Shown piece by piece: positions 4,770 to 15,317 of a stretch of DNA of 64,000 bases (the first letter of the stretch is position 1; the number at the start of each line of letters is the position of its first letter). The DNA is from Chryseobacterium indologenes (GTDB taxonomy: Bacteria; Bacteroidota; Bacteroidia; Flavobacteriales; Weeksellaceae), in contig NZ_CP074372.1 of assembly GCF_018362995.1 (NCBI RefSeq), forward strand, positions 4,216,001-4,280,000. The letters are read 5' to 3'. Position numbers and translations under genes: made by a program. Below the pieces are notes generated by a model. It was not told the origin of the DNA. It made no database searches and saw only the letters and a list, made by a program, of their open reading frames with translations.

Positions 4770-5903
4770 ATGAATCAGAATATCAATCAACTCAATACAG
4801 TCCTTACCTACGTAAAAGAAACCTTTGTAGGTAAAAATGATGTCGTAGATCTGTTGGGAATCTGCCTTTTGGCAAGAGAAAATGCTTTTTTGTACGGCCC
4901 TCCGGGGACTGCAAAATCGGCGATTGTCAGAACGTTGGCGAAAACCGTAAAAGATGGAAAAAACTTTGAATATTTATTAACCCGCTTTACAGAACCGAAC
5001 GAAATTTTCGGACCTTTTGATATCAGAAAACTGAAAGAAGGTGAACTTCTGACCAATACGGAAGGAATGATGCCTGAAGCTTCCATGGTTTTTCTGGATG
5101 AAATTTTCAATGCCAATTCTGCCATTCTGAATTCCCTTTTGATGGCACTTAACGAGAAGATTTTTAAAAGGGGAAAAGAAACAAAACACTTACCTGCACT
5201 GATGTTTGTGGGGGCAAGTAACGTTCTTCCCGAAGATGAAGCATTGAACGCATTGTTTGACCGTTTTCTGGTGAGAATCAATGTAGATTATGTAAAACCT
5301 GAACTGTTACAACAGGTGCTTTTAGCCGGAAGAAAACTGGAGAATCAGGAAGAAGCGGATATTCCGGAAATCCATGCCGATGAGATCAGGCAGCTTCAGA
5401 ACCTGTGTAGAACCATAGACCTTAAACCAATCTATGAAGTTTATCTCAATACTATTATGAGCCTTCGGAATACAGGAATTGCCATTTCAGACCGTAGAGC
5501 CGTAAAGCTTCAGAACCTGATTGCTGCAAGTGCCCTGATCTGTGGAAGAAAAGAAGCCGTGCTTTCTGACCTTTGGGTATTGAAGCATATCTGGGATACC
5601 GAAGAGCAGATTGAAATTCTGGAGGGAATTATCAACAGGACCATAGAGAAAGACGATCATCCGGATTCCCATCCACAGGCGATGCACAACAAAACTCCCA
5701 ATCCCGAGGAGGTCATGAAAGATGTGACAATTCTTGTGGAAAAATGGAATGGCGGAATGCTGAGCTTTGAAGAACAGAATGTAATAAAAGATAAACTGAG
5801 ATACCTGCAGACCCGTTGCGACTGGATCAGAAATCCGGAACAGAAACAGTATATCCAGCAAGAAATTGAAAGCTTATGGCAGAAGATCCTTCAAAGCGTT
5901 TAA
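4770..5903 (+). CDS. MoxR family AAA+ ATPase
   Basis: This 377-aa cytosolic AAA+ protein has Walker A GPPGTAKS at residues 43-50, Walker B MVFLDEIF at 106-113, sensor-1 GASN near 149-152 and an arginine-finger-type DRF at 164-166, followed by a lid domain and a helical tail. MoxR ATPases act as chaperone-like remodellers paired with vWA proteins. Here the partner is the 792-aa vWA/bpX protein two genes downstream. Together they match the ternary conflict systems described by comparative genomics. Its end overlaps the next start by 28 bases, implying translational coupling. Confidence 0.9.
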   Translation: MNQNINQLNTVLTYVKETFVGKNDVVDLLGICLLARENAFLYGPPGTAKSAIVRTLAKTVKDGKNFEYLLTRFTEPNEIFGPFDIRKLKEGELLTNTEGMMPEASMVFLDEIFNANSAILNSLLMALNEKIFKRGKETKHLPALMFVGASNVLPEDEALNALFDRFLVRINVDYVKPELLQQVLLAGRKLENQEEADIPEIHADEIRQLQNLCRTIDLKPIYEVYLNTIMSLRNTGIAISDRRAVKLQNLIAASALICGRKEAVLSDLWVLKHIWDTEEQIEILEGIINRTIEKDDHPDSHPQAMHNKTPNPEEVMKDVTILVEKWNGGMLSFEEQNVIKDKLRYLQTRCDWIRNPEQKQYIQQEIESLWQKILQSV

Positions 5904-6619
5904 AAGAATTCTGGGCAGAACTTCCCCGTGCCGATGAAGACTTTCTGGGCTCTGTCAGAGACTGGAAAAACATTCAGATCGCTGTGGAGGAAGGAACAAT
6001 CTGGCTGAAAGGCTTTACCGACGAACAGGCTGAATCTCAGGAAGTACAGCAGTTGCCGGACTTTATCCTGTATGAGCTTCGGAATGGTCTTTTATTCAGG
6101 AAAGAAGCTTTGGTTCCAAGCAAAAAAATGAGAACAGCATTGCTTTGGGTACCTATAGACAAGGCGTTGCAGCTTACTTTTCCTCTTTCCAATCAGAACT
6201 ATTTTGGAATTCAGGAACAGGTTCAGGTAAAATTAAAAGAAAGCAATGAAGAGCAGCCGGTAATCGCTTTATTAAGCAATATTGCTGATATTAAAGAAAG
6301 TATCGCAGCATTACCGAAGTTTAAACTGGAAAAAATAAAATGGACTGTTTTAGGAAATAAAGCACTGTTTGTAGGCATTCCATTATTAAGCTTTCCCGGA
6401 AAAACCTATTGGACAAAAGACAGACATTTATTGCCGGCCGGTCTGGATTTTGAATTTAAAAATCTAAGTACCCTTTTACAGCAGAAATATAATAAAGAGC
6501 CGGAAGGATGGTTACTTTGGGATGAAAACGGGAATTATCTTTTAATAAAAGAAACTGATTTCCGTCCTTTATCTATAAGTTCATTCCGTCTTACAGAAAA
6601 ATCAAGAGAATGGAATTAA
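5876..6619 (+). CDS. bpX-type accessory protein of the MoxR system
   Basis: This 247-aa soluble protein begins MAEDPSKRLKEFWAELPRAD and is rich in tryptophan and beta-prone segments (WLKGF, PDFILYELRNGLLFRKEAL, YWTKDRHLLPAGLDFEF). I recognise no catalytic motif. Fixed placement between a MoxR ATPase and the vWA protein, with overlaps on both sides, points to a dedicated bpX-family component of MoxR-vWA-beta-propeller systems. The exact bpX subtype cannot be assigned by eye. Confidence 0.6.
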   Translation: MAEDPSKRLKEFWAELPRADEDFLGSVRDWKNIQIAVEEGTIWLKGFTDEQAESQEVQQLPDFILYELRNGLLFRKEALVPSKKMRTALLWVPIDKALQLTFPLSNQNYFGIQEQVQVKLKESNEEQPVIALLSNIADIKESIAALPKFKLEKIKWTVLGNKALFVGIPLLSFPGKTYWTKDRHLLPAGLDFEFKNLSTLLQQKYNKEPEGWLLWDENGNYLLIKETDFRPLSISSFRLTEKSREWN

Positions 6620-8988
6620 AGTTCTATTTCCAGTCCTATGAAAATTACTTTTGGGAATGGAAAACTGATGAAGATGTTCCCGGTGATTCCGGTTACCATG
6701 ACAATAATCTCCTCTCGGTTCCGGGAGTGGGAGCGATAGCTTACAGGCCTTATGTGATGGAGATTCTCAAAGAACTTCAGCCACAGGGATGGCCTCCCTT
6801 TGGAGCGTTGCTGATGGTTTTGTATGCTATGCAGGATGGCTATATTGATTTTGCAGGCTCTTTGAGACGTACCGCTGAGTTTTATAGTGGAGAAGACTTT
6901 GAATTCAATGTGGAAAAACAAATTGAATTTCTTGAAAAGATCCAATCACTTCCCAATGTTTATAAGCAGAAACAAAACAGAATTGTTTTGCTGCAAACGT
7001 TATTCAGCAATGGTCATAACAGGGTGGCCTCTCTTCATGCGGATATGTATTTAAAGATCTATTATAAACGACCGCAGGAAATTGCTATCAGTGCAGAAAA
7101 ACAAGACGAAGGTTCAATAGCTTTAAACAAAGATTTAAGTGCTTTGAATCTGAATGAAAAATTTCCTACTGTACAATCCATCATTGATGCCATGAAAGGT
7201 TTGATCGACGAGCCTGAGCTGGATGATGAGGTAGTAGAAGAGGAAACAACAGCGGATACAGATAAAGATTTTATTAAAGAATTAATTGAAGAACCCAAAA
7301 CATTTCAGGTAGGAAGCCTCATCAAAAGAATATGGAGCGGTCTGAAAATTCCTATGCGCCACCTTTCCCCGGGAGAACAGCCTATCGGAGGAATTTCTGA
7401 TATGACCAACAAAGGTGATTTTCACAGGATGCTTCTTTCTGAATTTGCCAATGAAGATGACGTCTTTATGAATAGGGTAGCCAATAATGAAGCGCTTTAT
7501 ATTCAAAGAGAAATTCCGCCCGAAGAAAATATTTTTGAAAGAATTATTCTGATTGATACTTCCCTCAGAAATTGGGGGACTCCAAAAGTATTGGCTTTTG
7601 CCTCTGCAATTGCTATCATCAAACACCCGAAAGCTCATTCTGAATGTAAAGTTTTTGCCTTAGGGCAGGCAGGTGTTCCTATTGCCCTTAACAAAGTAGA
7701 GGAAGTGGTTGAAAACCTCAATCAGGTGAGTCCGGTTCTGGAAGTTTCCGAAGCGTTGGAAAGTTTTTTTAATCAAGAGCATACTGAAAAAGATATTGAA
7801 GTGTTCTTTATTACCCATCAGGAGAATATGGAGGATGAAAAAATTCAGCGGGTGGTTCATCAGAACAGAAACAGGCTTAAGTTTCTGGTGACTACAACAT
7901 CAGATGGTGAAATTAATTTTTATAAACATCATAAAGGAACCAGAAAACATATTCAGAAAATAAAACTTCCATTACAGGAGTTGTGGGCCAATCCGCCACA
8001 GCAAAAACAGTCCGTTCATAATTTCAATGGAAAGAAAACCGATCTTCCACAAAACTATCCTGTCTTATTTCCAACCCCTGTTAATAAGATTGCCAAGTTT
8101 TTATATGATGGCGAATTTTTCATTCTGAGTTCTAAAAAACAATTATTGAAGACTTATCTTTCTGATAATTATTACGACAAACATTCTTATGATTACTATA
8201 AAACACATCACGGCTGTGAAGTTTTGTTTGATAATATTTCCATAAAACTCAAAGGACAGTTTGCCCTTGCAAAAAACAAGCAGCAGCACTTTATTCTGTG
8301 CCAGTATCAGCATGATCAGAAATTAATATCAAAGCTTAACCTTAATACAAGAGAATATTCCGAGCAGAATCTTACAGGAATGAATATTCCGGAGTCCTAC
8401 AAACTGATTTATTTTGGACGGAGCTTTTATCTTCATCACCCGGACAATTCTACCCACTATAAAATAAACATGGAGGGAAATATCTCTGTAGAACCTATTA
8501 CCGGAAAAGATAAAGAGTTTGAAAAAAATAATATAAAAGCTGAGGCTGAAGTTGCGAAACTGAAGGGAAGTGGATTAAGAATTATCAATAATTTCAACAA
8601 AATAGGAATCAATCAATATGAAAATCTGGTTATTTCCGGACATGAATTGTACATTTCTTCAGAAAACACACTTGATTTTTCCAAAAACAAATATGATATT
8701 AAAATTTTTGCTGAGCAGAACAAAAATAAATTTACATTTCCCGATGGAAGCGAAATTATTACAGACTCACGGGGAATGCTGACTTTCCGAAGCAGTAATA
8801 AAAGTATCGAAGAATTTTTTATTCCTTCCACGGCTCATGGGTTTCTCTCTTTGGCAACTTATACAGAATTTGGAGGATCAGAATATTATCTTCCGGAACA
8901 TGCCTTGCTGAAAGTAAGAACAATGGATGATATGTGCGACAGGTTTTTGAAACCGTTTATAGAACAGATATTGGATTATGGAGCTTAG
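6610..8988 (+). CDS. vWA-like and beta-propeller protein of the MoxR system
   Basis: This 792-aa protein has three visible parts. The N-terminal 200 or so residues form a helical domain ending in an acidic linker (DEPELDDEVVEEETTADTD). The middle holds a vWA-like fold whose metal site is reduced to ILIDTSLRNWG (D316, S318) instead of DxSxS, so metal binding is doubtful. The C-terminal half from about residue 450 is a series of short beta repeats with YDG, LSS and NYLVISG-like strands, consistent with a beta-propeller. It is the natural partner of the MoxR ATPase. It overlaps both neighbours by about 10 bases. Confidence 0.7.
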   Translation: MELKFYFQSYENYFWEWKTDEDVPGDSGYHDNNLLSVPGVGAIAYRPYVMEILKELQPQGWPPFGALLMVLYAMQDGYIDFAGSLRRTAEFYSGEDFEFNVEKQIEFLEKIQSLPNVYKQKQNRIVLLQTLFSNGHNRVASLHADMYLKIYYKRPQEIAISAEKQDEGSIALNKDLSALNLNEKFPTVQSIIDAMKGLIDEPELDDEVVEEETTADTDKDFIKELIEEPKTFQVGSLIKRIWSGLKIPMRHLSPGEQPIGGISDMTNKGDFHRMLLSEFANEDDVFMNRVANNEALYIQREIPPEENIFERIILIDTSLRNWGTPKVLAFASAIAIIKHPKAHSECKVFALGQAGVPIALNKVEEVVENLNQVSPVLEVSEALESFFNQEHTEKDIEVFFITHQENMEDEKIQRVVHQNRNRLKFLVTTTSDGEINFYKHHKGTRKHIQKIKLPLQELWANPPQQKQSVHNFNGKKTDLPQNYPVLFPTPVNKIAKFLYDGEFFILSSKKQLLKTYLSDNYYDKHSYDYYKTHHGCEVLFDNISIKLKGQFALAKNKQQHFILCQYQHDQKLISKLNLNTREYSEQNLTGMNIPESYKLIYFGRSFYLHHPDNSTHYKINMEGNISVEPITGKDKEFEKNNIKAEAEVAKLKGSGLRIINNFNKIGINQYENLVISGHELYISSENTLDFSKNKYDIKIFAEQNKNKFTFPDGSEIITDSRGMLTFRSSNKSIEEFFIPSTAHGFLSLATYTEFGGSEYYLPEHALLKVRTMDDMCDRFLKPFIEQILDYGA

Positions 8989-10672
8989 AATAAAACCTTT
9001 CCCGAAAAATAACTATCCCAAAAAAGGTCTCTTAATCAGAGGTTCTTCACCTGTGGTATGGCTTCAGGAAATGGAAACGCTTGGCATTAATTTAAGCCAG
9101 GTAAAATCTTATGCAATTCCTGCCAACAGTCCGAATGTGCTGTATGGTTGTTTCCTTGTTTTTAATGATTATGCTCCGCAGGAAATAGGTAGAAATGCTT
9201 ACTTTCAATGTGTTGATAACAGACTTTTCATTCCTGAAAACACTACTTTTTATCCTAAAATAAATCCGGAAGACTGGGCACGGCTTGATTCCCGTTTTCT
9301 GATTATGCATCCTGAATTCGGATTCGTAAAACTCTCTGAAGAAATCGACTGGATTTCATTAATTCAGCTGCCCGGTATTATAGACGAAAACATCAGAAAG
9401 CCATTGAACGGCGTTTCAATTCCTCAGAAAATTGAAAGCTATACCGTTGAAATAGATGATGAAAAAGTAATGGAAGAATTACAGCCAAAGCAAACCGAAG
9501 AAGAATGGATGAATCACCTTCCGTTTGATCTTAAAAAAGTAATGGCCGGAAATAAAAAGGAAATAGAAAAGTACTTACAGTATATTGAAAAATACCCTGA
9601 AAGAGCAGTGGAACTGGGCGTTTCGCTTGATGTAATGGGAACTTCCAGAGGTGACGGCTTTGGCAAATTTACCTGGCTGGAAGGATTATTTGGTGGAAGC
9701 TCCGGAGGGAAAACTGAAAGTGCAGGAACAAAAAACTTTCGCAGAATATTCTGGGCGGTAATTATTGTGGCTATAGTCTTAAAGATAGCATTACCTTCAG
9801 ATAAAAATAATACTGAACAGGAAGAAAATGCAGTTTCTGGAAAAATGGCAAATAATACTGTAAAAGAACCTTCTGATATGATTGCTTTCCAGTCCGGGAC
9901 CTCAGAAATTGATCTGAAGATCGACTCTATATATCATCAGGAGAGAAAAGAACTGTCCAAAGAACTTATTCATGCCGGGATCATAGAATCCAAAACAAAA
10001 GAAGACAAAGAAAATTATAAAAAAGCAGGTGGAAGAGAGGTGAGTGAAATAGGAAGAGATATCGGAAAGCTTGTGAATAAAGAAAAGCAAAGCCGGGATT
10101 CTCTTAAAACCATTTATACCCAAAAGATCACAAAGCACCTTGAACAAAAATCTGAAAAGCTGGAACGCAAAATTTCAGATTCCCTGAAGCAGTATACCAA
10201 TGGAAAACCCGTAAATGGAGAAGTCGTAAAATTCCTGCTGAAAAAGAAAAAAGCTTTGATAGCTGATTCTTTGGGTAAACTTTACGGAACATTGGATATT
10301 GTAGACCCTTCTTCTGCTTCCATTGATAAATCCAAAGTGAAAGCAGTGGGGACGGAAGGAACTGCATTGGAGAAAAAAGCCCCTGTTTCAGATATTATGT
10401 ATATGGTTATCCTGATGATTGCTGGTGTAGGGCTGTATTTGTTCTTATTTAAAAATAAATCATTAAACCTTGGCGGCGATAATGTACCTGCATGGGTGAA
10501 ATTTATTTTAATATCAATCCTTGTGGCGATGCTGGTGTATTTATTTTATCCGTTGGTAAAAATGTTTGGCTACAACTGGTTTGTATGGGTTCTGGTGATT
10601 TGTGTGATGCTGCTCCTTTATCGCCTGTTCAGAGAAGATAAAACCATTTTAAAATCCGATGATGATGAATAA
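8978..10672 (+). CDS. bpX-type membrane protein of the MoxR system
   Basis: This 564-aa protein has a soluble N-terminal domain (residues 1-240) starting MELRIKPFPKNNYPKKGLLI and a glycine-rich linker. One membrane helix follows near 257-273 (IFWAVIIVAIVLKIAL), then a long charged coiled-coil-like region (about 290-450) and three more membrane helices between about 470 and 552. This anchors the MoxR/vWA machine to the inner membrane. No catalytic residues are recognised. Its start overlaps the stop of the vWA gene by 11 bases and its end overlaps the next gene by 14. Confidence 0.65.
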   Translation: MELRIKPFPKNNYPKKGLLIRGSSPVVWLQEMETLGINLSQVKSYAIPANSPNVLYGCFLVFNDYAPQEIGRNAYFQCVDNRLFIPENTTFYPKINPEDWARLDSRFLIMHPEFGFVKLSEEIDWISLIQLPGIIDENIRKPLNGVSIPQKIESYTVEIDDEKVMEELQPKQTEEEWMNHLPFDLKKVMAGNKKEIEKYLQYIEKYPERAVELGVSLDVMGTSRGDGFGKFTWLEGLFGGSSGGKTESAGTKNFRRIFWAVIIVAIVLKIALPSDKNNTEQEENAVSGKMANNTVKEPSDMIAFQSGTSEIDLKIDSIYHQERKELSKELIHAGIIESKTKEDKENYKKAGGREVSEIGRDIGKLVNKEKQSRDSLKTIYTQKITKHLEQKSEKLERKISDSLKQYTNGKPVNGEVVKFLLKKKKALIADSLGKLYGTLDIVDPSSASIDKSKVKAVGTEGTALEKKAPVSDIMYMVILMIAGVGLYLFLFKNKSLNLGGDNVPAWVKFILISILVAMLVYLFYPLVKMFGYNWFVWVLVICVMLLLYRLFREDKTILKSDDDE

Positions 10673-11687
10673 ACAGAAATTTATAGACAAATTTATGGCG
10701 GCATTCGTACTGCTTGCCCTATTTAAGGTCATCGGAATCGTTGCCCAATTATTCCATGAAAGCTTCTGGAGCGTGGCCGGAACATTAGGCATCTTCTTAA
10801 TTGTAGCCTTTATTATCCTTCTTGTGATCACTTCCTTAAAAGATAAAGAACAGAACAACAGAAATTCAGCAGGAAGAAAAGGCAGTGGAAGTAGCAGTTT
10901 CTATCTGGAAAATTCACTTTTTGACAGGATCCGGAGCAAATACGAAGAACTCGCAGAAAAATATATTGCTGAAAACGATTATAAAAAAGCAGCAAGAGTC
11001 TATATGAATTTGCTGCAGGACAACTACAGAGGGGCAAAAACACTTGAAAATGGCGGGTTCTACAATGAAGCAGCCGTAGTATACCTTAAGAAACTGAATA
11101 ATAAAACTGATGCAGCACTTTGCTATGAAAAGGCAAAGCAATACAAAAAGGCAATCGATCTTTATAAAGAAATGGAGCAGAAAGAAAAAGTAGGTGATCT
11201 CTATAAAGAAATCAATGATCTTAAAAATGCCCACCATTACTATCAAATAGTTGCAGACGACTATACAATCAATAATCAGATGGTGAAAGCTTCCCTAGTA
11301 TACCGTAAAAAAATGGAAAAAGCTGAAGAGGCACAAAAAGTACTGCTGAAAGGATGGGAAGAAGACAGAGATGCTTTCAATTGTTTGAATAACTACTTTG
11401 CCAATATTTTTGATGTTAAAAAACTGGAATCTGAAATACAGCATTTGTATCAGAAAACTCCGGCTCACAAAAAGATCACTTATCTGGAGGCTCTGAAATA
11501 TGAATTTAAAAAAGATCCGAAATTACATGCCGTCACAAGAAATATAGCCTACGAAATCATTGCTGAAAAAGTAGCCACCCGTTCAGAAATTGTGAATGAG
11601 CTAAAATATTTTAATCCCAATGATGAAGTGATTCTTAAAGACATTTCAAGATTTAAAACCGGAAGAAATAAAATGTTTAGGAATTAA
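10659..11687 (+). CDS. TPR membrane protein ending the bpX operon
   Basis: The 342-aa product has two N-terminal membrane helices (about residues 13-30 and 38-58) and a cytosolic domain with TPR-like repeats (KYIAENDYKKAARVYMNLL, ALCYEKAKQYKKAIDLYKE, LYKEINDLKNAHHYYQ). Such proteins scaffold protein assemblies. Three consecutive ATG codons begin at 10659; the first is used here, though any could start. It is the last of seven coupled genes; repeat DNA follows. Confidence 0.7.
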   Translation: MMMNKQKFIDKFMAAFVLLALFKVIGIVAQLFHESFWSVAGTLGIFLIVAFIILLVITSLKDKEQNNRNSAGRKGSGSSSFYLENSLFDRIRSKYEELAEKYIAENDYKKAARVYMNLLQDNYRGAKTLENGGFYNEAAVVYLKKLNNKTDAALCYEKAKQYKKAIDLYKEMEQKEKVGDLYKEINDLKNAHHYYQIVADDYTINNQMVKASLVYRKKMEKAEEAQKVLLKGWEEDRDAFNCLNNYFANIFDVKKLESEIQHLYQKTPAHKKITYLEALKYEFKKDPKLHAVTRNIAYEIIAEKVATRSEIVNELKYFNPNDEVILKDISRFKTGRNKMFRN

Positions 11688-11739: not shown

Positions 11740-11880
11740 AATCAATGTAATTATTTGCATTATTCAGACCAATATTATTAACGGTATTAAATTTTATCGG
11801 AGATAAAATCCTCGCGCCTTAAAGCATATTTTTTTAATATTATTTTGCGCCTTGCGTATCTAAAACCTTCCAGAGATCGT
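11740..11880. repeat. dispersed repeat downstream of the bpX operon
   Basis: The segment contains ATTATTAACGGTATTAAATT, TATCGGAGATAAAATCC, then CGCGCCTTAAAGCAT and TTTTGCGCCTTGCGT. Near-copies occur at 3.3 kb (inverted) and 43.25 kb. It looks like a multi-copy non-coding repeat. Confidence 0.55.
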
Positions 11881-11910
11881 GACAATTATAAAATAATAAC
11901 AAAAAAGATT

Positions 11911-11918
11911 TATCTTTG
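11911..11918 (+). promoter_or_regulatory. -7 box of leader ORF 1
   Basis: TATCTTTG matches TAnnTTTG and lies 12 bases before the ATG at 11931. Confidence 0.6.
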
Positions 11919-11930
11919 CCCCAGAAAATT

Positions 11931-12059
11931 ATGACAATACAAAGAGCACATATCAATGCAGAACTATTCGGAAGTCCTTCTAATAAAGGATTATTTGGAT
12001 ATGATGAGATGATATGGAATGAGGCGAAATGTGCTGACTTTGGAAATTATTTACTGTAA
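11931..12059 (+). CDS. leader peptide 1, 42 aa, 19 of 20 amino acids
   Basis: This tiny ORF has a strong -7 box just upstream and an intrinsic terminator 33 bases downstream. The peptide starts MTIQRAHINAELFG and ends CADFGNYLL. It contains every amino acid except valine, within 42 residues. Codons 31-32 (GAGGCG, 12021-12026) are complementary to CGCCTC in the 5' arm of the terminator, so a ribosome halted upstream would leave that segment free to act as antiterminator. I read it as an attenuation leader that samples most tRNAs, not as a functional protein. The ORF and pairings are visible; the role is inferred. Confidence 0.6.
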   Translation: MTIQRAHINAELFGSPSNKGLFGYDEMIWNEAKCADFGNYLL

Positions 12060-12091
12060 TCTTGTAAAAAATTAATCAAAATACAACAGAA

Positions 12092-12118
12092 ACGCCTCGG
12101 AAAACCGAGGCGTTTTTT
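12092..12118 (+). terminator. intrinsic terminator/attenuator 1
   Basis: A perfect 9-bp stem (ACGCCTCGG 12092-12100 with CCGAGGCGT 12105-12113), an AAAA loop and a T run. The 5' arm can alternatively pair with GAGGCG inside leader ORF 1. Confidence 0.85.
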
Positions 12119-12368
12119 GTTTTTTAGGTCAGAAATTATTTAGAATGAAAAAAAATAACCATAAACATGAAAATTTTTTAATTAACAATGAAACTTTAAT
12201 ACGATAAAATAGAGTGATAAGCAACCCGGTGAGAGACAGTCATTTAGGTAATTAAGATATCTGCAAAATATTGCGGACAGAAATTCTCTATTCTAAAAAC
12301 AAAACGTAATTAATTGATTATCAATAATTTGATTTGAAAATTTATTTGCGGATTCCAAAAATTCATAT
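12119..12368 (+). other. gap between the two attenuators
   Basis: This 250-base AT-rich stretch has no convincing gene. It holds a 20-codon ORF (12145-12207) with no support and a possible degenerate copy of the TGCGTA-type motif (CTGCAAAATATTGCGGA, about 12260-12276) without a matching -7 box. Confidence 0.4.
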
Positions 12369-12376
12369 TTACTTTG
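12369..12376 (+). promoter_or_regulatory. -7 box before leader ORF 2
   Basis: TTACTTTG, the same variant as in front of the Ro60-type gene. An upstream TTTG near 12345 gives the usual spacing of about 20 bases. The ATG of leader ORF 2 lies 70 bases downstream. Confidence 0.5.
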
Positions 12377-12446
12377 CAACCGAAAATTGAAAGCAACAGG
12401 TTTTCAGGATTCAATTAAAAATAATTTAGAAACAAACAAAAATAAA

Positions 12447-12572
12447 ATGAAACAGTTACACAACATATTCAATCAATATTCAAGACTATTCGGACATGAG
12501 CCGGCAGGAGTTCTGTGTATTCTTGATAGTGAAATTGTGGATGAAAGGTGCTTGTATACGTGGGTCAGCTAA
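12447..12572 (+). CDS. leader peptide 2, 41 aa, all 20 amino acids
   Basis: The peptide starts MKQLHNIFNQYSRLFG and ends DERCLYTWVS. It contains all 20 amino acids in 41 residues and uses 35 different codons, including five different leucine codons, which is odd for an AT-rich genome with strong codon bias. It lies between a promoter and an intrinsic terminator directly before the tRNA-like array. AGGTGCTT at 12546-12553 (codons 34-36) can pair with AAGCGCCT, the start of the terminator stem. This supports a transcription-attenuation leader sensing general tRNA charging or integrity. An ATG at 12447 is preferred over an in-frame upstream TTG. Confidence 0.65.
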   Translation: MKQLHNIFNQYSRLFGHEPAGVLCILDSEIVDERCLYTWVS

Positions 12573-12596
12573 TGATCTCTTACGTTTAAAAATATG

Positions 12597-12626
12597 AAGC
12601 GCCTCCCGAAAAGAGGCGCTTTTTTT
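12597..12626 (+). terminator. intrinsic terminator/attenuator 2 before the tRNA array
   Basis: AGCGCCTC (12598-12605) pairs with GAGGCGCT (12613-12620), followed by a T run. The first tRNA-like gene starts 3 bases later, so readthrough is needed for the array to be transcribed from the leader promoter. Confidence 0.85.
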
Positions 12627-12628
12627 AT

Positions 12629-12702
12629 GGTTTCTTTAGCTTATTTGGTAAAGCGCCGGTCTGTGGAACCGGAGAACAGGGTTCGATTCCCGGAGATACC
12701 CC
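12629..12702 (+). tRNA. tRNA-like, His (GTG)
   Basis: The anticodon arm is CCGGT-CTGTGGA-ACCGG. The D-arm is GCTT/AAGC, with a TTCGATT T-loop. An extra 5' G can pair with the discriminator C, a tRNA-His hallmark. The acceptor and T stems each carry a mismatch, so it is divergent. It is the first member of the array, immediately after attenuator 2. Confidence 0.75.
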
Positions 12703-12710
12703 AAATATAA

Positions 12711-12784
12711 AATCTCATAGCTCAAGTGGTTAGAGCACCGGTCTTTTAAACCGGGGGTTGAAAGTTCAAATCTTTCTGGGGTTA
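12711..12784 (+). tRNA. tRNA-like, Lys (TTT)
   Basis: Acceptor AATCTCA/TGGGGTT (three wobble pairs), D-arm GCTC/GAGC, anticodon arm CCGGT-CTTTTAA-ACCGG, T-arm GAAAG-TTCAAAT-CTTTC. CCA is not encoded. Confidence 0.8.
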
Positions 12785-12791
12785 CAAAAAC

Positions 12792-12865
12792 GGTTCCGTA
12801 GCTCAATTGGATAGAGCATGGGTTTTCTAAACCCAGGGCTAGAGGTTCGAATCCTCTCGGAATCA
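12792..12865 (+). tRNA. tRNA-like, Arg (TCT)
   Basis: Acceptor GGTTCCG/CGGAATC, D-arm GCTC/GAGC, anticodon arm TGGGT-TTTCTAA-ACCCA, T-arm AGAGG-TTCGAAT-CCTCT. This is a well-formed cloverleaf. Confidence 0.85.
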
Positions 12866-12871
12866 CAAAAA

Positions 12872-12930
12872 GGTTCATGGAAAATTTCCCATCCGGCTGT
12901 CTCCCGGAAAAGAAACAGAAGTGAACCCCA
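12872..12930 (+). ncRNA. armless tRNA-shaped RNA ending in CCA
   Basis: GGTTCA (12872-12877) pairs with TGAACC (12922-12927), followed by CCA. Inside are a GGAAA/TTTCC hairpin in the D-arm position and a CCGG-CTGTCTC-CCGG hairpin in the anticodon position, but there is no T-arm. It lies between the Arg and Pro tRNA-like genes. It may be a decayed tRNA or a deliberate mimic. I do not recognise it as a known RNA. Confidence 0.45.
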
Positions 12931-12933
12931 AAG

Positions 12934-13005
12934 CTGGAAAGATAACGGTGGTTGTTTACCCGTCTTGGACGCGGGAGGTCGCAAGTTCGAATCTTGCTTT
13001 CCAGA
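12934..13005 (+). tRNA. tRNA-like, Pro (TGG)
   Basis: The acceptor CTGGAAA/TTTCCAG is perfect, the anticodon arm is CCCGT-CTTGGAC-GCGGG and the T-arm GCAAG-TTCGAAT-CTTGC. The D-arm is unusually weak (AAC/GTT, 3 bp). Confidence 0.75.
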
Positions 13006-13011
13006 CAATTT

Positions 13012-13083
13012 GTTCCATTAGCATAGTGGTAAGTGCATTCGGCTTTCTACCGAACGACAAGGGTTCGATCCCCTTATGGAATA
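13012..13083 (+). tRNA. tRNA-like, Glu (TTC)
   Basis: Acceptor GTTCCAT/ATGGAAT, anticodon arm TTCGG-CTTTCTA-CCGAA, T-arm AAGGG-TTCGATC-CCCTT. This is the first of two Glu genes in the array. Confidence 0.8.
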
Positions 13084-13088
13084 CAAAT

Positions 13089-13162
13089 GATTTCGTAGCT
13101 CAAGTGGTTAGAGTATCGGTCTGATACACCGAAGGTTGAAGGTTCGAGTCCTTCCGGAATTA
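13089..13162 (+). tRNA. tRNA-like, Ile (GAT)
   Basis: Acceptor GATTTCG/CGGAATT with wobble pairs, D-arm GCTC/GAGT, anticodon arm TCGGT-CTGATAC-ACCGA, T-arm GAAGG-TTCGAGT-CCTTC. Confidence 0.8.
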
Positions 13163-13187
13163 CAGTAACTAATTGTTAATTGTTTCA

Positions 13188-13267
13188 GGAGAAAAAAGTA
13201 AAAGTTTGTCGAGAGCAGAAGATCTTTACGCCAAACACGAAAATACAGACAGGCTTTTCTTCTCTCC
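13188..13267 (+). ncRNA. hairpin RNA family, copy a
   Basis: An outer stem GGAGA/TCTCC leads to AAAGTTTGTC paired with GACAGGCTTT. The loop begins GAGAGCAGAAGATCTTTA, the element conserved in five copies across the array. No known RNA family recognised. Confidence 0.6.
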
Positions 13268-13310
13268 GGATTAATTAAAAGTTAAGAATATCATTTATAA
13301 ATTTTTAGGT

Positions 13311-13375
13311 AAAAATAAAGTTTGTCAAGCGCAGAAGTTCTTATATCAAACAAATCTTAGACAGACTTTATTTTT
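13311..13375 (+). ncRNA. hairpin RNA family, copy b
   Basis: AAAAATAAAGTTTGTC (13311-13326) pairs over 16 bp with GACAGACTTTATTTTT (13360-13375). The loop starts AAGCGCAGAAGTTCTTAT. The T run at the 3' side could end transcription. Confidence 0.65.
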
Positions 13376-13382
13376 TTAATCT

Positions 13383-13464
13383 GATGGTTCGCCGAAGTGG
13401 AAGAGTCGGGGCGGTCTGCAAAACCGTTGTGTAAACTGAGTGGGTTTGAATCCCATAGCCATCT
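13383..13464 (+). tRNA. tRNA-like, Cys (GCA), enlarged
   Basis: Acceptor GATGGTT/AGCCATC, anticodon arm GCGGT-CTGCAAA-ACCGT, T-arm GTGGG-TTTGAAT-CCCAT. At about 82 bases it is long for Cys. It has a class-II-like D region (CGCCGAAGTGGAAGAGTCGG) and a longer variable region, much like the Tyr gene that follows. Confidence 0.7.
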
Positions 13465-13546
13465 CAATGTAAAACTATAGGAGAGATATAAGAATCTTTT
13501 ATCAATGATCCTTTATCATCTATAGCAAAGAATATCCTTTATTAAT

Positions 13547-13615
13547 AAAAGAAAAAGGCTGTCGAGCGCAGAAGATCTTTAATCAAACATTCAATAAAGA
13601 CAGACCTTTTCTTTT
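13547..13615 (+). ncRNA. hairpin RNA family, copy c
   Basis: AAAAGAAAAAGGCTGTC pairs with GACAGACCTTTTCTTTT with one bulge on each side. The loop opens GAGCGCAGAAGATCTTTAAT, the family signature. Confidence 0.65.
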
Positions 13616-13637
13616 TTAAGGAAAAAATAAAAAATCC

Positions 13638-13721
13638 GGAAGTACGCCGAAGTTGGAGAGTCGGGGCAGACTGTAAATCTGTTGCTTCATAGCTGAGTAG
13701 GTTCGAATCCTACTACTTCCA
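13638..13721 (+). tRNA. tRNA-like, Tyr (GTA)
   Basis: Acceptor GGAAGTA/TACTTCC is perfect. The anticodon arm is CAGAC-TGTAAA-TCTG with GTA, there is a long variable arm as expected for bacterial Tyr, and the T-arm is TAGG-TTCGAAT-CCTA. Confidence 0.8.
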
Positions 13722-13726
13722 CCCAA

Positions 13727-13797
13727 CCACTGATAATGTAATGGCAGCATGCAGGAAATGTACTCTTGTTGTTCAGGTTCGATTCCTGGTTAGTGGG
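13727..13797 (+). tRNA. tRNA-like, Thr (TGT)
   Basis: Acceptor CCACTGA/TTAGTGG, anticodon arm CAGGA-AATGTAC-TCTTG, T-arm CAGG-TTCGATT-CCTG. It starts 5 bases after the Tyr gene. Confidence 0.75.
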
Positions 13798-13802
13798 TTA
13801 AC

Positions 13803-13874
13803 GCTCTATTCGTCTAACGGTGAGGACGCCTGCCTTTCGAGCAGAAAACAAGGGTTCGATTCCCTTATAGAGTA
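13803..13874 (+). tRNA. tRNA-like, Glu (TTC), second copy
   Basis: Acceptor GCTCTAT/ATAGAGT, a typical Glu D-arm (TCGTCTAACGGTGAGGACG), anticodon arm CTGC-CTTTCGA-GCAG, T-arm AAGGG-TTCGATT-CCCTT. It differs clearly from the other Glu copy. Confidence 0.8.
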
Positions 13875-13880
13875 CTGGAT

Positions 13881-13963
13881 GTGAATAGCTGGTCAATAAT
13901 GAATTGATATAATACCATGAAAGTTCAGATTTTTTTTAAAAAAATTGGCCAGTTACCATTCAC
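13881..13963 (+). repeat. long hairpin in the tRNA array
   Basis: GTGAAT/ATTCAC (13881/13958) and CTGGTCAA/TTGGCCAG (13889/13945) form nested stems around an AT-rich loop. It resembles the GTGAAT-type dispersed hairpins also seen at 14.73 kb, so it may be a repeat and not a functional RNA. Confidence 0.45.
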
Positions 13964-13979
13964 ACAAAAAATGAAGAAA

Positions 13980-14046
13980 AGAGAAAAAGGACTGTCAAGA
14001 GCAGAAGATCTTTAGTCAATAAAAATAGACAGCCTTTTACTTTTTT
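13980..14046 (+). ncRNA. hairpin RNA family, copy d
   Basis: AAAAAGG-A-CTGTC pairs with GACAG-CCTTTT. The loop opens AAGAGCAGAAGATCTTTAGT. A T run follows the stem. Confidence 0.65.
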
Positions 14047-14067
14047 AAACGAAATACATTAGGAAAT

Positions 14068-14142
14068 GAGAAAGGTTTGTCAAGCGCAGAAGATCTTTAC
14101 AAATACTAGCAGGCATAATTTATAAACAGACAGAGCTTTCTC
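14068..14142 (+). ncRNA. hairpin RNA family, copy e
   Basis: GAGAAAGGTTTGTC (14068-14081) pairs with GACAGAGCTTTCTC (14129-14142) with one mismatch. The loop opens AAGCGCAGAAGATCTTTAC. Confidence 0.65.
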
Positions 14143-14159
14143 AAACCTAGCATGACATA

Positions 14160-14232
14160 GGTAATAAGCAATGAGCAATAAGTAATAACCATAGATTTTC
14201 ATATTACTCATTACCGATTACTCATTACTAAT
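14160..14232. repeat. AGCAATGAGTAAT-type palindromic repeat
   Basis: GTAATAAGCAATGAGCAAT is mirrored by ATTACCGATTACTCATTAC. Related copies lie at 14330-14396, 14482-14560, 54627-54687 and 59725-59765. It is a dispersed non-coding repeat. Confidence 0.6.
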
Positions 14233-14240
14233 AAAATAAC

Positions 14241-14314
14241 GCCTCTCTATTCCAATTGGCAGAGAAAACGGCTTTAAACCCCGTAAAGTCCCAGTTTGAA
14301 TCTGGGGAGAGGTA
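14241..14314 (+). tRNA. tRNA-like, Leu (TAA) or UAA-reading (TTA)
   Basis: Acceptor GCCTCTC/GAGAGGT (inner six pairs firm), T-arm CCCAG-TTTGAAT-CTGGG. The anticodon arm is ambiguous. ACGGC-TTTAAAC-CCCGT (one C-C mismatch) gives TAA (Leu), while a CTTTAAA loop would give TTA, reading the stop UAA. It lacks the long variable arm expected for Leu. Confidence 0.55.
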
Positions 14315-14401
14315 CAGAATATGATTAATAAGCAATGAGCAATAAGTAATGATATAGGGTGAAAATTACTAATTACCAATTACTCATTGCTTATAAAATC
14401 C

Positions 14402-14474
14402 GGAAGAGTGGTGTAGAAGGTCTGCACGTTAGTCTGAAAAACTAAAGGTACAGGTTCAATTCCTGTCTGTTCCA
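14402..14474 (+). tRNA. tRNA-like, Phe (GAA)
   Basis: Acceptor GGAAGAG/CTGTTCC with one mismatch, anticodon arm TTAGT-CTGAAAA-ACTAA, T-arm ACAGG-TTCAATT-CCTGT. Confidence 0.75.
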
Positions 14475-14570
14475 CAGAAACATGAATGATAAGTAATAAA
14501 CAATGAGTAATCATTGATACCTGATTAATTTCTGGCATTATCATTACCAATTACTCATTAATTTAAACCT

Positions 14571-14642
14571 TGATTCATAGTGTAATAGGCAGCACACAAG
14601 ATTTTGATTCTTGTAGTTTAGGTTCGAGTCCTAATGAATTAA
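14571..14642 (+). tRNA. tRNA-like, Gln (TTG)
   Basis: Acceptor TGATTCA/TGAATTA, D-arm GTGT/GCAC-like, anticodon arm CAAGA-TTTTGAT-TCTTG, T-arm TAGG-TTCGAGT-CCTA. Confidence 0.75.
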
Positions 14643-14650
14643 CAGTATTT

Positions 14651-14721
14651 ACTCTGATAGTGTAATGAGAGCATCTCAGTCTCCAAAACTGATGGTATCG
14701 GTTCGAGTCCGGTTCGGAGTG
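14651..14721 (+). tRNA. tRNA-like, Trp (CCA)
   Basis: Acceptor ACTCTGA/TCGGAGT, anticodon arm TCAGT-CTCCAAA-ACTGA, T-arm ATCGG-TTCGAGT-CCGGT. It is the last member of the array, 110 bases before the YkuK-like gene. Confidence 0.75.
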
Positions 14722-14831
14722 CAAAAGATGAATAGTCAATAGTGAATTTTGCTTCGGAAATAAATTTAAAAAAATTGATGATTCACAATTCACAAATTAA
14801 TTTAAAACAAAATTTAAAACATGTAGAAAAA

Positions 14832-15317
14832 ATGGAAACGCAACAACAAACATGGCAGAATATGAACGGAAAATTTTTCCAAAACTCTATCACACAGCTG
14901 GTAGAAGAAGCCATTATCCGCGAACAGGCAAACGGACACCGTCTGAAAGTATGTGTGGGATCAGACTCTCATGTATACGGAGATGCCATCAATTATGCTA
15001 CGGCAGTAGTATTTATTCGTGAGGGAAAAGGAGCGTTTACCTTTATTAGAAAAGAAAGAGAAATACAGAGTATCAGTATCAAAGAGCGAATGCTGAATGA
15101 GGTTAACAAATCCGTAGAAATTGCATACGCTATCTGCTCTGTGTTGGACACTTATGGTGTGGAAATGGAGGTACACGCAGACATTAATACCGACCCCGAT
15201 TTTAAATCCAATGTAGCATTAAAAGATGCAATGGGATACATTCTGGGAATGGGATATGTGTTTAAAGCAAAACCTTTTGCCTTCGCAAGTTCCAACTGTG
15301 CTGATATGATGGTGTAA
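14832..15317 (+). CDS. YkuK family RNase H-like protein
   Basis: The 161-aa product is an RNase H-fold domain of the YkuK (DUF458) family. An early strand carries KVCVGSDSHVYGDAINYATAVV, with D45 as first acidic residue, and a later segment ETYGVEMEVHADINTD-like (HADINTDP) supplies further acids. The family's substrate is not established; an RNA or RNA-DNA role is likely from the fold. Start ATG 14832 is chosen because the upstream in-frame extension runs through repeat DNA. It directly follows the tRNA array and begins the run of RNA-processing genes. Confidence 0.8.
   Translation: METQQQTWQNMNGKFFQNSITQLVEEAIIREQANGHRLKVCVGSDSHVYGDAINYATAVVFIREGKGAFTFIRKEREIQSISIKERMLNEVNKSVEIAYAICSVLDTYGVEMEVHADINTDPDFKSNVALKDAMGYILGMGYVFKAKPFAFASSNCADMMV

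Follow-up and report, generated by a model that had tools for sequence, protein, structure and literature searches.

Two small open reading frames (ORFs) lie in tandem upstream of an array of divergent tRNA genes in a 64,000-nucleotide stretch of the Chryseobacterium indologenes chromosome (NZ_CP074372.1, positions 4,216,001 to 4,280,000; hereafter the window). On the + strand, which carries all window features given with coordinates here, the order is a bpX-type operon, ORF1 (11931..12059, 42 amino acids), the intrinsic terminator T1 (12092..12118), ORF2 (12447..12572, 41 amino acids) after some 330 nt, the intrinsic terminator T2 (12597..12626) and, directly 3' of it, 14 tRNA genes (12629..14722). 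The two ORFs probably encode leader peptides for ribosome-mediated attenuation, by which the tRNA array would be opened when almost any tRNA is depleted. We also favor, with a little less confidence, the more specific reading that these leaders have been selected to need all twenty amino acids before the switch point, such that loss of any tRNA would open a set of emergency tRNAs and the device would act as a universal sensor of tRNA integrity. A general attenuator had been proposed in a preliminary description of the locus, and the proposal is supported at the sequence level, since orthologous loci have lost neither the ORFs, nor their unusual composition, nor the pairing between ORF and terminator.

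Our recount confirmed that ORF2 contains all 20 amino acids and 35 distinct codons, and that ORF1 contains 19 amino acids (all but valine), encoded by 28 distinct codons. This composition is beyond chance expectation: among the 42-residue windows of the proteins encoded in the window, 0.27% comprised 20 amino acids and 2.8% at least 19, and the codon count peaked at 34 distinct codons in 1,792 42-codon windows drawn from 20 window genes. A segment late in each ORF can pair with the 5' arm of the following terminator and constitutes a predicted antiterminator arm. Arm 1 (TGAGGCG, 12020..12026) has its predicted partner at 12093-12099, and arm 2 (AGGTGCTT, 12546..12553) at 12597-12604; the positions first reported, 12021 for GAGGCG and 12546 for AGGTGCTT, were right. 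So, with its ORF 1 taken as the ORF at 11931, was the account of what is missing up to these arms, namely only Cys and Val in the ORF at 11931 and only Thr and Trp in that at 12447; the Trp and Thr of ORF2 occur in the window only past its arm. The terminators had been placed within about 35 bases of the ORFs, in agreement with a T1 stem (12092-12113) beginning 32 nt past the ORF1 stop codon and a T2 stem (12597-12621) beginning 24 nt past that of ORF2.

Both ORFs are kept in orthologous loci. Among 173 genomes of the window's genus, 166 carry the RNaseH_like gene that served as the search anchor. We fetched the locus from 100 of these 166, which, with the window, made a sample of 101 loci of the genus (individual loci are labeled L and a number). 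ORF1 was found by pattern in 97 of them and ORF2 in 99. Near-identical variants of ORF1 occur in L075 and L097 and a variant with a shifted end in L077 (L090 was left out for ORF1), and ORF2 variants are visible in both loci missed by the ORF2 pattern (L072 and L090). Start and stop codons are conserved in the two ORFs and length nearly so: all 77 unique ORF1 orthologues have 42 amino acids, and ORF2 measures 123 nt in 66 of 99 loci, with other in-frame lengths in the remaining ones.

Near-complete composition stays in these orthologues while the positions of the residues change. The unique ORF1 proteins (n = 77) contain 20 amino acids in 41 cases, 19 in 34 and 18 in 2, and the unique ORF2 proteins (n = 87) contain 20 in 39, 19 in 28, 18 in 17 and 17 in 3. 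In 95 of 96 loci, ORF1 and ORF2 together cover all 20 amino acids (19 in the other one), a coverage that 14% of random pairs of protein windows reach. The single residues move within this frame. Tryptophan in ORF1 stands at position 29 in 41 of the 77 sequences, at position 26 in 19, at both in 11 and is absent from 6; serine shifts from 15/17 to 9/21 and aspartate from 25/36 to 14. When residues were shuffled within alignment columns, the observed mean was reached in 0 of 1,000 trials for each ORF, a test that shared ancestry weakens. To see whether a single ancestral accident, preserved by ordinary conservation, could account for this, 147 overlapping windows of neighboring proteins that contain 19 or more amino acids in a reference were followed to their orthologues as controls. 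At 50 to 60% identity, at least 19 amino acids were present in 38 of 38 ORF1 comparisons and 92% of 26 ORF2 comparisons vs 11% of 584 control comparisons, and the leaders remained above the controls in every identity bin up to 90%. In view of the background windows and of this retention at low identity, we reject chance composition.

If only a stall before the antiterminator arm can act, coverage is expected 5' of the arm. In ORF1, the first 30 residues (76 unique pre-arm sequences) contain 20 amino acids in 28 cases and at least 19 in 63, compared with 0.008% and 0.12% of background 30-mers, respectively, and in all 77 proteins these first 30 residues are richer than the last 30. ORF2 does not follow the expectation (counts below), although the union of both pre-arm parts comprises 20 amino acids in 86 of 96 loci. 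As the part of ORF1 that precedes its arm calls for nearly all amino acids, the array would be opened by a lack of almost any tRNA.

The RNA elements of the predicted switch are conserved as well. T1, composed of ACGCCTCGG, AAAA and CCGAGGCGT followed by a T-run, was matched by pattern 3' of ORF1 in 95 of 97 loci and T2 3' of ORF2 in 97 of 99, and the four loci outside the pattern (L047 and L068 for T1, L109 and L130 for T2) show terminator-like hairpins. Both terminators were matched in 88 of the 101 loci, with a spacing of 478 to 523 nt; the tRNA content of the array varies freely, from 3 to 18 genes as counted by ARAGORN, despite this steady spacing. The pairing claimed for the window extends to the genus: the 5' arm of T2 is complementary to AGGTGCTT or a near variant of it in all 97 loci with a matched T2, and that of T1 forms a helix of at least 5 bp with an ORF1 segment in all 95 loci with a matched T1, in 93 of them at the position of TGAGGCG. 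The codons within the arm are uncommon synonyms. The Arg codon is AGG in 99 of 99 loci and the Glu codon GAG in 90 of 94, although AGG and GAG make up only 14% of Arg codons and 16% of Glu codons, respectively, in 20 window genes.

Covariation, which had been suggested as a check, was found in one of the two structures. The T2 alignment covered 67 of 88 distinct segments, with gapped cells set aside and one duplicate row dropped for the pairing count. The 7-bp core stem of T2 is 100% paired, and 12 sequences carry changes from G-C to A-U on both sides, a count of cells unmatched in 500 shuffles. The outer helix of the ORF2 antiterminator is paired in 97.5% of cells (66 distinct sequences) and shows no two-sided changes, and covariation within the genus thus neither supports nor denies this helix. 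Between arm 2 and T2, a hairpin of at least 4 bp was predicted in all 67 aligned segments. In the window it spans 12558..12585, holds the ORF2 stop codon in its loop and would form the inner part of the antiterminator. In 42 of the 67 segments the whole stop codon lies in the loop, in 24 the stem takes up part of it and in 1 it falls outside the hairpin, and different clades use different pairings. In predicted minimum-energy folds of segments that stop short of the terminator's 3' arm, the antiterminator was present in 72 of 73 distinct ORF1 segments and in all 78 distinct ORF2 segments. For the window, antiterminator 1 and T1 are about equal in energy (-17.1 and -16.8 kcal/mol), and antiterminator 2 is more stable than T2 (-19.1 vs -14.6 kcal/mol).

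These data bear on the possibility that the small ORFs encode functional micropeptides, such as antitoxins or regulators, with T1 and T2 as plain terminators insulating the array. The constant length of ORF1 (42 amino acids in 77 of 77 unique sequences) and the in-frame lengths of ORF2 (123 nt in 66 of 99 loci) are what a conserved product would give. Nevertheless, the ratios of nonsynonymous to synonymous polymorphism (pN/pS), 0.69 for ORF1 and 0.52 for ORF2, the mere 9 to 11 residues shared with four leaders of other families, and the uncommon synonyms in the arm codons all speak against selection on a peptide, and a plain terminator a few nucleotides before the first tRNA would merely silence the array. 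We consider the micropeptide explanation very improbable.

The search was extended to other families of Bacteroidota with the RNaseH_like protein of Tenacibaculum, whose homologue lies 3' of the array in the window, as the query. This returned 76 loci, of which 35 bear an array of at least three tRNA genes; in the remaining 41, the stretch examined contains no more than two tRNA genes. Candidate leader ORFs followed by a terminator occur upstream of the array in 34 of the 35, with two or more in 32; the sequence of the 35th (L198) begins 61 nt before the first tRNA. Four of these leaders share 9 to 11 identical residues with ORF1 over 29 to 39 amino acids. The arms differ from clade to clade, with the pairs GGATGCT:AGCGTCC in Tenacibaculum, AAGGAGAT:ATCTCCTT in Flavobacteriaceae, GGAAGGT:ACCTTCC in Psychroserpens and TGCGGGGC:GCCCCGCA in Foetidibacter. 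Duplex energies discriminate weakly in these families (mean of -10.0 vs -8.7 kcal/mol), in part because the arm definition omitted loop bases in T2. In three loci of a neighboring genus (L159, L168 and L169), both leaders are present and contain 17 to 20 amino acids. Most loci of Saprospiraceae and relatives (L202 to L247) have the RNaseH_like gene with no tRNA array in the stretch examined, and 39 of the 76 loci have no tRNA gene at all. The RNaseH_like gene thus has another context in these loci.

Several observations weigh against the attenuator interpretation or limit its reach. Common descent of the orthologues and the repeated use of sequences in the comparisons make the counts those of non-independent events. 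Among comparisons at 90 to 100% identity, ORF2 keeps 19 or more amino acids in 53% (n = 19), compared with 81% of controls, and, contrary to the expected coverage 5' of the arm, its pre-arm part is richer than an equal end stretch in 25 of 87 proteins and poorer in 31. The pN/pS of ORF2 (0.52) is below that of its other frames (0.75 and 0.89), but the 0.69 of ORF1 is hardly under the 0.71 of the +2 frame (0.99 in the remaining frame); modest coding constraint of this kind would be expected if composition, and not exact sequence, matters, and is no proof of translation. Helix formation is a weak test of the arms, since arms with shuffled letters still formed 4 pairs or more in 306 of 365 trials and in 238 of 390, and the antiterminator outer helix lacks two-sided changes within the genus. 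Swapping terminator arms across clades discriminated in Flavobacteriaceae, where a locus's own arm exceeded the 95th percentile in 70% and 97% of cases, but the same swap for the window's own group put the own arm above this percentile in only 2% and 0%. Outside the genus and its nearest relatives, richness was only moderate (P < 0.05 in 31 of 66 candidates vs 8 of 66 control ORFs, with a median P of 0.06). The union of the leaders reached 20 amino acids in 14 of 31 loci, counting identical leader pairs once and leaving out the loci with one candidate (L189 and L227), where 2.9 were expected from protein windows and about 6 (21%) from pairs of control small ORFs before terminators. A 6-bp arm was not found in L227 and in one module of L229, and some of the other-family candidates are probably false. 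The richness effect is present in other families and is less extreme than in the window's genus.

Beyond the ORFs, their composition, the complementarity and the array, which were read directly from the DNA, the attenuator model requires that the ORFs be translated, that ribosomes stall on them, that RNA polymerase read through the terminators and that the cell use the array tRNAs. Two short transcripts would be driven by P1 and P2. P1 (11911..11918), 12 nt 5' of the ORF1 start codon, is a likely -7 box of a putative ORF1 promoter with the sequence TAnnTTTG, and the motif TAnnTTTG or TAnnTTTA occurs 11 to 14 nt 5' of the ORF1 start codon in 96 of 97 loci (80 nt upstream scanned). P2 (12369..12377), the likely promoter box TTACTTTGC of ORF2, was found in 99 of 99 loci within 120 nt 5' of ORF2; for both assignments we take TAnnTTTG to be the promoter consensus. 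In a healthy cell, the ribosome would reach the stop codon and melt the hairpin around it, thereby blocking the antiterminator. Without the antiterminator, the terminator would form, and RNA polymerase would halt just 5' of the first tRNA. When a charged, intact tRNA is short, the ribosome would stall at an earlier codon and leave the arm free, the antiterminator would form first, and the array would be transcribed. Its tRNAs may then replace those lost to nucleases, beside enzymes of RNA repair.

In the strongest rival to this scheme, the leaders could sense a global slowdown of translation, caused for example by ribosome-targeting antibiotics, with a mixed composition that is incidental or that covers many drug-sensitive contexts. 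Any stall before the arm would yield the same output, and a precedent is found in the ermC leader, which is described as sensing a general slowdown with no specificity for an amino acid (PMC2965389). However, an ordinary composition would suffice for such a sensor, yet completeness is kept as residues move, and ORF1 shows it mainly 5' of the arm; moreover, the output is a tRNA array and no resistance gene. The slowdown explanation leaves the retained completeness unexplained, and we regard it as unlikely.

The array itself had been described as tRNA-like genes, and this was borne out, with 14 tRNA genes identified by ARAGORN, 11 of which exceed the Rfam tRNA cutoff in a scan of the whole window. 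Their order is His, Lys, Arg, Pro, Glu, Ile, Cys, Tyr, Thr, Glu, Leu, Phe, Gln and Trp. They share 44 to 75% identity with the canonical tRNAs that carry the same anticodon in this genome, and the seven-base anticodon loop is unlike the canonical one in 12 of the 14, often by one base at the edge of the loop. Across the genus, the discriminator base is mostly canonical (His C, Cys U, Trp G, Asn G, Asp G, Ser G and Tyr A), with counts of 89 of 91 for C73 in His, 84 of 85 for U73 in Cys, 52 of 52 for G73 in Trp and 69 of 70 for G73 in Asn; it is more variable in the Thr, Phe, Leu(tag), Lys and Glu array tRNAs. The motif GTTCRA is present in 92% of 1,237 array tRNAs and 97% of 37 canonical ones. 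Val, Ala and Gly tRNAs are absent from all 101 arrays of the genus and present in some arrays of other families. Because the discriminators are mostly canonical and the anticodon loops mostly altered, the array tRNAs would be suited to act as replacements.

Another reading of the same genes leaves the leader logic unchanged and makes the array tRNAs decoys that soak up tRNA-cleaving nucleases, and not charged replacements. Their low identity to canonical tRNAs would fit a decoy, as would odd bodies such as that of Leu(taa) and the varying discriminators of the Thr, Phe, Leu(tag), Lys and Glu tRNAs. On the other hand, the discriminators of the His, Cys, Trp and Asn tRNAs, which we take to be known identity elements, have been kept together with GTTCRA, and an altered anticodon loop in 12 of 14 tRNAs is the reverse of what a decoy for loop-specific nucleases should have. 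The decoy reading appears improbable to us, and replacement remains the function we prefer.

Some members and parts of the array deserve mention in their own right. The Leu(taa) tRNA (14241-14315) does not have the long variable arm found in the canonical Leu(taa) tRNA. In the Cys tRNA (13383-13465), which resembles the Tyr tRNA of the array (77% over 52 nt), the variable region is long and U73 is kept. Five copies of a hairpin with the loop motif GTCRAGMGCAGAAGATCTT lie between tRNA genes (13194..14140). Across the genus this motif is found most often beside Cys, Tyr and Leu tRNAs, with none by pattern in 12 of 101 loci, and one further weak match occurs in this genome outside the array.

Downstream of the array follow the RNaseH_like gene used as the search anchor (PF04308, 14832..15317), a cREC_REC gene encoding a cyclic-phosphate-processing receiver domain (PF20274, 15377..15748), a DinB-type gene and an RLIG1-type RNA ligase gene (PF17720, 16328..16918; 30.2 bits over residues 107-188, with a cutoff of 25). 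A Tenacibaculum locus (L170) has genes for RtcB, an RF-1-domain protein and an RNase_T exonuclease 5' of its array. We read the device in terms of tRNA integrity because of these neighbors, namely the divergent tRNA array, the RNA ligase and the cyclic-phosphate-processing domain, and RtcB and the RF-1-domain protein in the Tenacibaculum locus; judging from these genes, tRNA damage may be the natural signal. RtcB is not among the neighbors of the array in the window, as the genome's RtcB matches fall outside the window.

Upstream of ORF1, an operon (4770..11687) encodes bpMoxR, bpX2, bpX0-bpX1, bpX3 and a protein of 342 amino acids. Its domains (PF20030, PF19918, PF19915, PF19917 and PF19919, with PF19920 nearby) assign it to the MoxR-vWA-beta-propeller kind, and bpX4 lies further upstream. 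A tight coupling of leaders and array to this operon was rejected, since both persist without it: in L168, L169, L171 and L077, leaders and array are present and the genome's best bpMoxR match reaches only about 1e-16.

The interval between T1 and P2 holds two further features. ORF3 (12145..12207, 20 amino acids) is a small ORF of ordinary composition, judged by eye, and also looks conserved by eye in nine sequences of an alignment of 96 loci. A conserved RNA-like element (12216..12295) combines GAGAGACAG with a hairpin (TCTGC..GCGGA) ending in CGGACA. A regular expression for it matched 91 of 101 loci of the genus and 10 of the 76 loci of other families, and no second copy was found in the genome at up to 3 mismatches.

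The leaders do not correspond to an RNA family already in Rfam. Only tRNA passes the Rfam cutoff, both in the whole window and in 11880-14840, and no T-box family was among the 40 matches of the latter region up to an E value of 5, which excludes a T-box riboswitch or another known family as the explanation. Matches to Phe_leader (RF01859) stayed below its cutoff of 55 bits (40.9 bits at 12018-12120 and 20.9 bits at 12571-12628).

Known amino-acid leader attenuators (trp, his, phe and ilv) consist of a short ORF, a terminator and a mutually exclusive antiterminator that overlaps the end of the ORF. The layout of the present locus is alike: an intrinsic terminator stands between each leader ORF and the genes downstream, and an antiterminator overlapping the ORF and exclusive with the terminator is predicted, with controls that discriminate only in part. 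The T1 region also resembles Phe_leader, with a score below the cutoff. Unlike those systems, there is no run of codons for one regulated amino acid; each leader contains 17 to 20 distinct amino acids, with near-complete coverage of the 20, and the output is tRNA genes and not a biosynthetic operon. The device would thus work like a leader-peptide attenuator, yet not one of the classical single-amino-acid type. The ilvGMEDA and thr leaders also report on more than one tRNA, by repeated codons for two or three amino acids, compared with 17 to 20 amino acids here. Our search of the literature, which did not extend to subscription papers and most preprints, found no account of such leaders or of this array among the records listed. 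Textbook attenuation reads one or a few amino acids, and a leader selected for completeness would, if the model holds, represent a new principle of sensing. It would allow the detection of tRNA-cleaving toxins or defense nucleases without a sensor protein, whichever tRNA is hit, and would give a reason for second, divergent sets of tRNAs on chromosomes; the idea is directly testable in culturable Bacteroidota.

Other systems resemble parts of the locus. In the leaders of ermC (PMC2965389), msrD and mef(E), a stalled ribosome likewise alters the folding of the leader RNA, but these leaders control resistance genes and depend on a drug or a general slowdown, whereas tRNAs lie downstream here. 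The RtcR-regulated RNA repair operon (PMC7790460) resembles our predicted device in having damaged tRNA as the signal and linked RNA repair genes; RtcR, however, is a transcriptional activator with a CARF-type domain, whereas the predicted sensor here is the ribosome on the leader ORF. Clusters of tRNA genes in phages, predicted to evade host anticodon nucleases (PMC10264068), similarly provide an extra tRNA set with altered anticodon loops, but the present array is chromosomal, genus wide and predicted to be inducible by the leader switch. The MoxR-vWA-beta-propeller ternary conflict systems share with the window the operon of bpMoxR and bpX0 to bpX3 5' of the leaders, and bpX4 further up; in contrast, section 22 of PMC7159879 mentions no tRNA array, and leaders and array persist here without a strong bpMoxR match. 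What is new in this locus is the combination of a predicted sensor of the whole tRNA pool with a tRNA array as its output, the parts being otherwise those of leader-peptide attenuation.

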